Assembly (NCBI GenBank): GCA_035710745.1
Contig: DASTCX010000026.1
Coordinates: forward strand, 1-64,000
DNA from: Candidatus Eremiobacteraceae bacterium
GTDB taxonomy: Bacteria; Vulcanimicrobiota; Vulcanimicrobiia; Eremiobacterales; Eremiobacteraceae
Length of the DNA stretch: 64,000 bases
Reading direction: 5' to 3'
Shown: piece by piece, positions 42,807-46,868 of the stretch
How positions within the stretch are numbered: position 1 is the first letter of the stretch
How the letters are laid out: each line of letters opens with the position of its first letter
The notes under the pieces: generated by a model
Databases searched by the model: none
The model's input: the letters and a program-made list of their open reading frames with translations, nothing else
Told to the model about the DNA's origin: nothing
Position numbers and translations under genes: made by a program

Positions 42807-42829
42807 CGGTCGAGCTTTAGCTCGACCGC
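42801..42829 (+). repeat. REP-like palindrome, type A(GTAG), GAGC stem
   Basis: GTAG plus CGGTCGAGC-TTTA-GCTCGACCG. It overlaps the last codon and the stop of the HAD gene: the TAG stop (42804-42806) is part of the GTAG tetranucleotide. Confidence 0.85.
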
Positions 42830-42897: not shown

Positions 42898-44466
42898 CTA
42901 CACGACGCGGGTCAGGTAGCCGTCGTCTTCCTCTTCCTGCTCGTCGTGCCAGTGGAGCGCGTCTTGGAGCGCGGCAGAGATGTCGCCCGCGGCGATCGAG
43001 TGCTTCTTCTGATCGTGCAGATACGCTGCGGTGATGCCGTGCCAGTACGCTGCGATCGCGGCGGCTTGTCGCGACGAACAGCCGGCGCCGAGCATCGCGC
43101 CGATCATGCCGGAGAGGACGTCGCCGGATCCGGCGGTCGCGAGCAGCTCGTTGCCGGTGAGGTTGACGTACGTCGCCTCTTTCGTCGCGACGATCGATCG
43201 CGGACCCTTGAGGAGCAGCGTCGCGTCGAGCGCTGACGCGAAGTCGTCGGCCGCCTTGATGCGATTCGATATCGCGGTATCCGCCTTTTCGCCGAGCAGT
43301 CGCGCGAACTCACCGTCGTGCGGCGTCAGCACCGCCTTCTTGCCGGACACGACGTCGGTATGACCCGCAAGCGCGAAGAGCGCATCGGCATCGACGACGA
43401 GTGGGCGCGCCGTCTCCCTGACGAAGCCGCGGACGATCGCCTGCGTCTTCTCTTCGCGACCGAGCCCAGGTCCGATGACGACCGCGCCCGAGTGGCGCGT
43501 CAGCTCGAGCAAGAAATCGACGATAGTCGAGGCATCGCCGTCGGGCCAAGGCGTGACGACCTGTTCGACGAGATGATGGCTGATCGCCGATGACGCGTCG
43601 TGCGGGCACGCGACGGTGACGTATCCGGCACCCGTTCGCTGTGCGGCGACGGCGCAGAGCACGGGAGCGCCGACGTATTGCCGGCTGCCGCCGATGATGA
43701 CGATGTCGCCCGCGGTCCGTTTGTTCGCCTGAGGGCTGCGGTGCGGCAACCAGTAGAAGAACTGCTGTTTCGTCATCACATGATAGCGCGCGCCGACCTC
43801 CGCGAGGATCGAGGGCGGGATGCCGATGTGCGCGACCCAGAGCTCGCCGACGTATGACGCGGCCGGATACAAGAGCATGCCGACTTTCGGTGCAGCCATC
43901 GTGACCGTCGCCGTCGCGGTGACCGCCGGCCCCGCGACCATGCCGGTGCTCGGATCGATGCCGGTCGGTACGTCGACGGCGATGACGTCGCGATCCGCGA
44001 TATTGATCTCGTTGACCCAGGTGCGGTACTGATCCCGGAGCGGGCCTGAAGACCCGGTGCCGAGCAATCCGTCGATGATGAGCGCGGCGGCGCGCAGCCC
44101 GGAGCGGAAGAATTCCGGCGACTGCTCGCGCAGGAACGAGATCGACGCGCCGAGACCTTCCATGATGTCGAGCTGCGCGCGGCATAGCTCGTCGCAGTCT
44201 TCGGCCTTGGCCGCCATGTAGATATCGGGCTCGAATCCGACCTGCATGAGGTAGCGCGCGGCGACGAGCGCATCGGCGCCGTTGTTTCCCGGGCCGGCGA
44301 CGATCGCCACGCGGATCGGGTCGCCGTCGAGATCGTCGAGGAAATCGCGGGCGAGATCGGCGACTGCCCGACCGGCCGACTCCATGAGCAACAACGGCGG
44401 GATGCCGACATCCTCGACGGTGCGGAGATCGGCTTGGCGCATTTCCGAAGCCGTAAGCGCGTTCAT
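42898..44466 (-). CDS. nnr: Bifunctional NAD(P)H-hydrate epimerase and dehydratase
   Basis: The 522-residue enzyme repairs hydrated NAD(P)H. The N-terminal YjeF epimerase half (about residues 1-215) shows VAIVAGPGNNGADALVAARYL. The C-terminal ATP/ADP-dependent dehydratase half (from about 230) shows VIGPGLGREEKTQ, TPHDGEFARLLG and TAGSGDVLSGMIGAML. The ATG overlaps the stop of acpS, giving an acpS-nnr pair, a common bacterial arrangement. Confidence 0.95.
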   Translation of the reverse strand: MNALTASEMRQADLRTVEDVGIPPLLLMESAGRAVADLARDFLDDLDGDPIRVAIVAGPGNNGADALVAARYLMQVGFEPDIYMAAKAEDCDELCRAQLDIMEGLGASISFLREQSPEFFRSGLRAAALIIDGLLGTGSSGPLRDQYRTWVNEINIADRDVIAVDVPTGIDPSTGMVAGPAVTATATVTMAAPKVGMLLYPAASYVGELWVAHIGIPPSILAEVGARYHVMTKQQFFYWLPHRSPQANKRTAGDIVIIGGSRQYVGAPVLCAVAAQRTGAGYVTVACPHDASSAISHHLVEQVVTPWPDGDASTIVDFLLELTRHSGAVVIGPGLGREEKTQAIVRGFVRETARPLVVDADALFALAGHTDVVSGKKAVLTPHDGEFARLLGEKADTAISNRIKAADDFASALDATLLLKGPRSIVATKEATYVNLTGNELLATAGSGDVLSGMIGAMLGAGCSSRQAAAIAAYWHGITAAYLHDQKKHSIAAGDISAALQDALHWHDEQEEEDDGYLTRVV

Positions 44467-44888: not shown

Positions 44889-44943
44889 ACGTTAATGCTC
44901 CCGGATGCGCGCTCGCTCTCACCGGAGGACTGGAGCGGAGCGC

Positions 44944-45498
44944 GTGGAGAATCGGAACCTCACGGTGGAAAAAATAAGTCTCGTCCCCATGAACGGCGTC
45001 GGCACCGATTTCTGCGAACGGCTCGCCCCATGCCTGGAGGAGAGATTTTTCCACAAGTTCGCAGTCGAAAAGCCGCTCACCCTCTCCCTTACCCAGGCGA
45101 ACGCGACGCGCGGTCAGTTCTTCCTCAACACCGTCTTCAATCGCATGCTCGCCGCTTTCCCGCGGCAAGACGGTCTGCTGCTAGGCGTCATGGCCGGCGA
45201 CCTCTACAAAGCGGCGCACAATTATATCTTCGGCGATGCGAGCGAATCGGATCGGGTCGCGGTCGTATCGACTTTCCGGCTTCGCCCCGAGCACAACAAC
45301 GAGCCGCCGGATGACGGCTCGCTCTTCAACCGCACGCTCAAGGAATGCGTGCACGCGCTCGGCCACGCATTCGGCCTCAAGCACTGCTACAACACGCGCT
45401 GCGCCATGTATTTCAGCCATTCGGTCCACGACACGGACGGCAAGCTGACGTACTTCTGCGACTCGTGCGATAAGCGCGTGAGAGCAGCCAACCGCTGA
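44944..45498 (+). CDS. Archaemetzincin-like protein with altered active site
   Basis: The 184-residue protein matches archaemetzincin over the core: CVHALGHAFGLKHC with three zinc His, then CYNTRCAM and CDSC, the extra structural zinc cysteines that define the family. The usual catalytic Glu of HELGH is Ala here (HALGH, Ala138). One base (GCG for GAG, 45356) explains it. It may be an inactive zinc protein or an assembly error. GTG at 44944 follows GGAGCGGAG; an earlier ATG (44905) is possible. It diverges from acpS. Confidence 0.85.
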   Translation: MENRNLTVEKISLVPMNGVGTDFCERLAPCLEERFFHKFAVEKPLTLSLTQANATRGQFFLNTVFNRMLAAFPRQDGLLLGVMAGDLYKAAHNYIFGDASESDRVAVVSTFRLRPEHNNEPPDDGSLFNRTLKECVHALGHAFGLKHCYNTRCAMYFSHSVHDTDGKLTYFCDSCDKRVRAANR

Positions 45499-45614: not shown

Positions 45615-46868
45615 ATGAGTACTACTCCCAAGCGGGCCTTTTCGCGTTGGAGTATCGGCATCGCATGCGGCGTGCTAGCCGCCGCGGGCGCGATCGCGCT
45701 TAGCCCGGCGGTCGCCTCCAGAGCGCCAGGCGGTGACCTATCGATAACGTGCAACAACTCGACGGAGTGCGTGCTCCGCACGAACGCCGGCACCGGACTG
45801 GCCATCGAGGGCATCGGCACGCAAAACACCGGCATCGACGGTCAGACGACCGCATTCAACACGAGGTCGAGTTTCTTCGGCGTTCGGGGCAGCGATCTCG
45901 CGACACCGAATCCGAACGGCACGCCGTTCAACAATGCGGGCGTGCTCGGCGAGACGTCGACCGGGATCGGCGTCTGGGGCAAAGCCGGGCCGGGCACCGC
46001 GATGGTCGCGAACGCGAACGGCGGCGACGGACTCTTCGGCACGACGCAGAGCAACGTCACGGGCATAGCGTCGGCCGGCGTCTTCGGTGAAGACGTGGGC
46101 AACTCGTCGCAGGCATTCGGCGTTCTCGGCTTCTCCGGCACCGGCATCGGCATACAAGCCGATCAATTCGAGCGCGGCAGATTCCTCAACGCCGCATTCC
46201 TCGGCCTGACGTTCTCGTCAACCATCACGACGGAGTTCCCCGCGGCACCGCCTGGCGGCGTTTTCAACTCCGACATCGGCGAAGGCGTCGTCGCGGAAGC
46301 GCAAGGGCACACGGCTGAAGCGCTCGCCGCCGCGAATTTCGGCGGCGGTCCGCTCTTCAGAGCGTACGCGGCCAGCACGGAAAAGCTCGATCTCGACAAT
46401 GCCGGCAACATGGTCATCGCCGGAACGCTGACGCAGAACGGCACACCGCACGATGCGATGCAGACGTCGAGCGGTAATCGCGTCGTCATGTACGGTCCGA
46501 TGCAAGCGGTTGCGACCGTGGAAGACGTCGGCGAGGCGCAGCTGTCGGGCGGTCAGGCGTACGTCCACATCGACGCGCGCTTTGCGGGCACTATGGATCT
46601 GACGCGCTCGTACCTCGTCTTCCTGACGCCGCAGGGCGACACGCCCGGTCTCTACGTGACGCAGAAGAGCGCTGCGGGTTTCGTGGTCCGCGAGCACGGC
46701 GCACGATCGAACATCGTCTTCGACTATCGCATCGTCGCCGCGCCGTACGTATCGCAAGGCGCACGTCTCGCAAACGCCCCATCGATGCTGACGAACGCGT
46801 TCACTCGCAGCGTCACGACGCACAAACCGACCGTGCTACCGAACGGCACGATCGCCGTCCGCCACTAG
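45615..46868 (+). CDS. Exported repetitive protein, unknown function
   Basis: The 417-residue product has a signal-type N-terminus (WSIGIACGVLAAAGAIALSPAVA). Its middle is built of short Gly/Asn-rich units (GVRGSDL, GVLGETSTGIGVWGKAG, GVFGEDVGN, GVLGFSGTGIGI), a pattern of parallel beta-helix or fibre proteins. The C-terminal 130 residues (AQLSGGQAYVHIDARFAG ... LVFLTPQGDTPGLYV) are globular. I cannot name the family. RBS GGGGGAT precedes the ATG at 45615. Surface or secreted location is inferred. Confidence 0.65.
   Translation: MSTTPKRAFSRWSIGIACGVLAAAGAIALSPAVASRAPGGDLSITCNNSTECVLRTNAGTGLAIEGIGTQNTGIDGQTTAFNTRSSFFGVRGSDLATPNPNGTPFNNAGVLGETSTGIGVWGKAGPGTAMVANANGGDGLFGTTQSNVTGIASAGVFGEDVGNSSQAFGVLGFSGTGIGIQADQFERGRFLNAAFLGLTFSSTITTEFPAAPPGGVFNSDIGEGVVAEAQGHTAEALAAANFGGGPLFRAYAASTEKLDLDNAGNMVIAGTLTQNGTPHDAMQTSSGNRVVMYGPMQAVATVEDVGEAQLSGGQAYVHIDARFAGTMDLTRSYLVFLTPQGDTPGLYVTQKSAAGFVVREHGARSNIVFDYRIVAAPYVSQGARLANAPSMLTNAFTRSVTTHKPTVLPNGTIAVRH

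Follow-up and report, generated by a model that had tools for sequence, protein, structure and literature searches.

The window analysed here, a stretch of 64,000 nucleotides of a Candidatus Eremiobacteraceae draft genome, carries an archaemetzincin-like gene, amz, transcribed divergently from acpS. The genes and features at this locus are the following.

44965..45498, plus strand: amz, archaemetzincin-like, 177 aa, GTG start (PF07998, homologue starts, AlphaFold2, Foldseek)
44922..44933, plus strand: CCGGAGGACTGG, upstream element of amz in the window genome
44463..44888, minus strand: acpS, 4'-phosphopantetheinyl transferase (PF01648 and synteny), divergent from amz and kept throughout the class
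42898..44466, minus strand: nnrD/nnrE fusion, NAD(P)H-hydrate dehydratase plus YjeF_N (PF01256, PF03853), a conserved neighbour downstream of acpS

Alignment placed the start of amz at GTG 44965, where conservation sets in at V/M-E-K-I and where homologues start too. A longer frame from ATG 44905 was rejected, its extension not being conserved. Adjoining amz on the other side, positions 45615-46868 (plus strand) encode a 417-aa protein without a Pfam match, which occupies the same place in L121, the genus's other genome, and is absent from the other loci of the family (family f1). A near-perfect palindrome, GGTCGAG-6 bases-CTCGACC, is dispersed over the window, with 20 strand matches at up to three mismatches versus 0.02 expected; the copies at 42808, 46912 and 50265 are intergenic.

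1553, 4561, 12800, 28459, 35479, 39844, 42808, 46912, 50265, 53777: copies of the palindrome

Direct reading of positions 45352-45366 gave CAC GCG CTC GGC CAC, which encodes HALGH. The active site and the adjoining metal site are laid out as follows.

45352..45387, plus strand: active-site helix and third ligand, HALGHAFGLKHC, residues 130-141 (H130, A131, H134, H140, C141)
45355..45357, plus strand: Ala131 (GCG) replacing the catalytic Glu, GCG in 14/14 family genomes
45385..45468, plus strand: Cys4 structural zinc site C141/C146/C165/C168 and Met148, invariant in the compared sets and known from archaemetzincin crystal structures

The extended motif reads HALGHAFGLKHC-YNTR-CAM-x16-CDSC. All three zinc His codons are present (45352-45354, 45364-45366 and 45382-45384), as is that of the Met-turn Met148 (45406-45408), and the four Cys codons begin at 45385, 45400, 45457 and 45466; a zinc bound by four Cys at this site has been seen in archaemetzincin crystal structures (PMC3427221). 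Read against the signature HEXXHXXGXXHCX4CXM...CXXC, the three His, the Met and the four Cys are present and invariant in the family, and the Glu is replaced by Ala. The initial annotation had described HALGH in place of HELGH, with GCG at 45355-45357 and with the zinc His and extra Cys intact, and this description is confirmed by the direct read and by the family genomes. The interval that it gave, 45343-45400, takes in HALGH, the first Cys and a single base of the codon for the second Cys; the third and fourth Cys lie downstream of it.

Membership of peptidase family M54 was supported by a PF07998 (Peptidase_M54) score of 59.9 bits versus a cut-off of 24.4. The score against NF033823, at 143.7-144.3 bits, fell just short of its cut-off of 145. 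The nearest PDB relatives by sequence are archaemetzincins. The window protein is confidently predicted to adopt the archaemetzincin fold: AlphaFold2, run with 51 sequences, gave a mean pLDDT of 95.0 and a pTM of 0.92, and a Foldseek comparison of the model with the PDB returned 3zvs, 2x7m, 3lmc and 4axq first, then other metzincins. The top five PDB matches were all archaemetzincins, with TMq of 0.82-0.85 (0.83 to 3zvs).

Ala occupies the Glu position in all 14 genomes of family f1, which span nine genera (Eremiobacterota/Vulcanimicrobiota); this family of uncultured soil bacteria takes in Candidatus Eremiobacter sp. RRmetagenome_bin22. The Ala codon is GCG in every one of them, and the three zinc His codons show synonymous variation only (CAC/CAT 8/6, 12/2 and 8/6). 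For amz within the family, dS was about 1.1 and the median dN/dS 0.124 (NG86), or 0.13 in the comparison between groups. Elsewhere dN/dS was 0.06 in the His-less genus g22, 0.04-0.12 in HELGH/HEIGH groups and 0.15 in a group with Asp, and was thus alike in groups of dead and intact type. Changes specific to the family are fixed near the motif, for example at residue 152, four positions beyond the Met-turn Met, where His has replaced Asn.

Distances in AMZ were also compared with those in its neighbour AcpS. Inside family f1 the AMZ/AcpS ratio was 0.83, AMZ being the better conserved of the two; it was 1.28 between f1 and its sister family f2 and 0.99 between f1 and f3, and comparisons between HELGH types gave 1.05-1.17. 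A strong acceleration after Glu loss is not clear for f1 (1.28 to f2, 0.99 to f3), and the f1-f3 ratio of 0.99 speaks against a general drift after that loss. Acceleration was clear in genera g22 and g29, which diverged faster than AcpS, with ratios to f2 of 1.55 and 1.81.

The region upstream of amz carries an element shared within the family. In the window, GGAGGACT precedes the amz start by no more than about 80 bases, as it does in 8/9 other f1 loci inspected (L121-L128); it is missing there from all 41 loci inspected outside the family, whether from other families or from other phyla. Some further members of f1 have the 13-mer CCGGAGGACTTGC, which is absent from the window genome, where CCGGAGGACTGG stands. 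In some genomes a putative short leader frame, with a TTG start and a TGA stop, comes after GGAGGACT. The element could belong to this dead-type lineage as a regulatory or leader sequence, or may simply reflect shared descent.

Synteny and copy number identified the gene that had changed. Of 118 loci examined, 101 have a divergent acpS beside amz; those without it are 15 loci from outside class Eremiobacteria and two truncated loci from within it. This acpS-nnrD context is common to the active-type and to every dead-type lineage of the class. M54 was found in 96/101 genomes searched, with no internal stop codon in any match, and the window genome and each of the 13 other f1 genomes gave a single match, so that no second, intact M54 copy was seen in them. 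Since the acpS locus is conserved and the gene is single copy, one orthologue was altered in place, without a duplicate. Sister families mostly have HELGH. Orthologues from other families of the class (e.g. L130, L132) are the same gene at the same divergent locus, with 47-57% identity, and presumably able to catalyse; they keep the intact HELGH motif, whereas the window protein has Ala. Carriage on plasmids was considered and rejected, with a single distant match. The conserved neighbours acpS and nnrD gave no pointer to a binding partner.

The state of the active site was then tabulated for 110 aligned homologues from the phylum. The full H-E-H-H set was present in 67, and one more kept Glu with one His lost. 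Ala with three His was found in 15/110, namely the 14 genomes of family f1 and the distant L099 (family f5), whose HALGH lies outside the class and is apparently independent. Asp (10/110) and Asn (1/110) together make up one clade in class Eremiobacteria, with HDLGH/HDIGH, and Gln occurs in three homologues from outside the class (HQLAH/HQLSH in L100-L102, family f6), as in CarG of Myxococcus xanthus. The Asp/Asn clade and the types in which His is also altered are listed here.

L010, L014, L015, L017, L023, L024, L030, L064, L066, L071, L098: Asp/Asn clade
L047-L052, L114, L115 (genus g22, eight genomes): YALGR..RSC
L046, L113 (g29): RALGR/RSIGH
L055 (g43): CGLGR
L045 (g19): HAVGR
L105: QKMGH

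In g22, g29, g43 and g19, all syntenic orthologues, Glu is gone together with two or all three zinc His, and the Cys4 site is kept; the four Cys are invariant across the compared E, D/N, f1 and His-less sets. Asp types may retain weak activity, and the one-genome cases HELGR (L097) and HNIGH (L098) could be errors. On trees built after removal of the active-site columns, family f1 formed a 100/100 clade. The first tree needs eight changes between E and non-E states, and a second, with L105 excluded and four outgroup rows added, needs seven (6-8 across 200 bootstrap trees). On these trees Glu was lost at least six to eight times within the phylum, with the Cys4 zinc site kept each time.

In metzincins this Glu polarises the zinc-bound water (PMC3427221), and exchanging it for Gln (E183Q) leaves Thermococcus AMZ-tk with minimal activity (PMC4681839). 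We favour, with a probability of about 0.75, the view that the window protein is a genuine pseudo-archaemetzincin, which lost Glu in the f1 ancestor and has since been kept as a zinc-bound, non-proteolytic binding or adaptor protein. A pseudoenzyme kept for binding had been one of two explanations offered at the outset, and the fixation of Ala in 14 genomes of nine genera, the dN/dS of about 0.12 and the exclusively synonymous changes in the zinc His codons all support it. The course of events would be that a HELGH-bearing, acpS-linked, single-copy orthologue acquired Ala in place of Glu in the family's common ancestor, and that the HALGH protein was afterwards held under strong purifying selection. 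Zinc would still be bound at both sites, His3 and Cys4, and the activation of water for peptide hydrolysis would be lost. A partner, protein or peptide, may bind in or near the metzincin cleft, with an adaptor or regulator role by analogy with CarG. Elsewhere in the class there are lineages that keep Cys4 after losing His3, so selection probably acts on a function of the folded surface and the Cys4 module and not on catalysis.

The other explanation offered at the outset was an assembly error, GCG for a true GAG. A one-base change in a draft genome of 41 contigs would suffice for such an assembly or sequencing error, but the same GCG stands in 14/14 orthologues, which are about one substitution per synonymous site apart and, by their record titles, come from different metagenome projects. 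The comparison with orthologues that had been proposed as a check thus found HALGH throughout the family, the window genome being no lone outlier among HELGH relatives, and we reject an error as practically inconceivable. Hardly more credible is a functionless gene in decay. Loss of the catalytic residue, and proteins in g22 and g29 that outpaced AcpS, would be expected of one, but dN/dS is 0.12 in f1 and 0.06 even in the His-less g22, and M54 persists in 96/101 genomes with matches free of internal stops.

It is also unlikely, though less so, that the protein is still an enzyme, with slow or different hydrolysis at the His3-bound zinc and with the part of Glu taken by some other residue or by a substrate-assisted mechanism. 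In favour of this, the His3 site is intact and under purifying selection, and changes specific to the family, such as that at residue 152, are fixed near the motif. In standard in vitro assays the archaemetzincins of M. kandleri and A. fulgidus, although intact, were inactive (PMC3427221), so assistance to catalysis by another group is conceivable in the HALGH protein. Against this, Glu loss nearly abolishes activity in the archaemetzincin tested (PMC4681839), and the class includes several lineages in which gene and locus persist although the His3 site is gone; catalysis is therefore not what keeps the gene in those lineages. An orthologue of CarG, acting in transcription with a CarD-like RNA polymerase-binding protein, would belong to the same family and show the same type of change, with Glu replaced and the His3 and Cys4 ligands retained, and the match to the CarG model NF033824, at 81.5 bits, is weak but real. 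That score is far under the equivalog cut-off of 250, NF033823 is the better match, and amz is divergent from acpS whereas translation of carG is coupled to that of carD (PMC8156234). No CarD turned up in the window genome, where CarD_TRCF_RID matched only two frames, neither of them CarD-like in architecture: one of 1141 aa, taken by its length to be Mfd, and one of 778 aa, a UvrD/PcrA-like helicase. In a phylum-wide search for CarD domains, all frames among the class matches listed were at least 546 aa. Given the NF033824 score, and with no CarD-like protein found in this genome, we rejected CarG orthology, which we regard as very improbable.

A non-proteolytic pseudo-archaemetzincin thus remains our preferred reading for family f1. 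More tentatively, and less likely than not, the archaemetzincin of class Eremiobacteria as a whole could serve mainly for binding, as it would have done ancestrally without need of proteolysis, catalysis being an optional trait that was dropped independently many times. Some lineages would then have dropped the catalytic zinc site too, with the Cys4 module and the surface held. If true, archaemetzincins in general would be zinc-dependent recognition proteins, which would fit the lack of activity of archaeal AmzA proteins that are intact. The natural series of orthologues described here bears on the biological role of archaemetzincins: running from HELGH through HDLGH and HALGH to proteins with no catalytic zinc site, mostly at one locus and all under purifying selection, it separates catalytic from binding function without mutagenesis. 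The annotation "Zn-dependent metalloprotease" may be wrong across much of the phylum.

An inactive archaemetzincin was already known in CarG, and no report of pseudo-archaemetzincins in Eremiobacterota was found in the open-access literature. The novelty lies in a separate lineage, with no CarD found in the window genome, and in repeated loss in place at a conserved locus, which sets pseudo-archaemetzincins outside the myxobacterial CarD/CarG system. With AfAmzA and MkAmzA (MEROPS M54; structures 3zvs, 4axq, 2x7m and 3lmc) the window protein has in common the fold, as predicted, His3, the Met-turn and the Cys4 zinc finger, at 28-36% identity; the archaeal proteins retain the catalytic Glu, whereas the window protein has Ala. 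CarG of M. xanthus has HQxxH in the motif HQx2Hx2Ex2HCx4CxMx16Cx2C (PMC8156234), binds two zinc ions, has no protease activity and is a transcription factor (PMC3427221; PMC8156234), working with CarD as a regulator of transcription (PMC4374960). Both CarG (NF033824, 'non-proteolytic archaemetzincin-like protein') and the window protein are archaemetzincin-like, keep His3 and Cys4 and have Glu replaced, by Gln in CarG and by Ala here; CarG has been shown to be non-proteolytic, whereas the window protein would be so by its sequence. CarG is reported only from myxobacteria, its gene being coupled to carD, and the window gene lies divergent from acpS-nnrD. Human AMZ1, an archaemetzincin too, also has a substitution in its active site, where the third His is Asn, Ser or Thr (PMC3427221); the eukaryotic protein has lost a His, whereas the window protein has lost the Glu.
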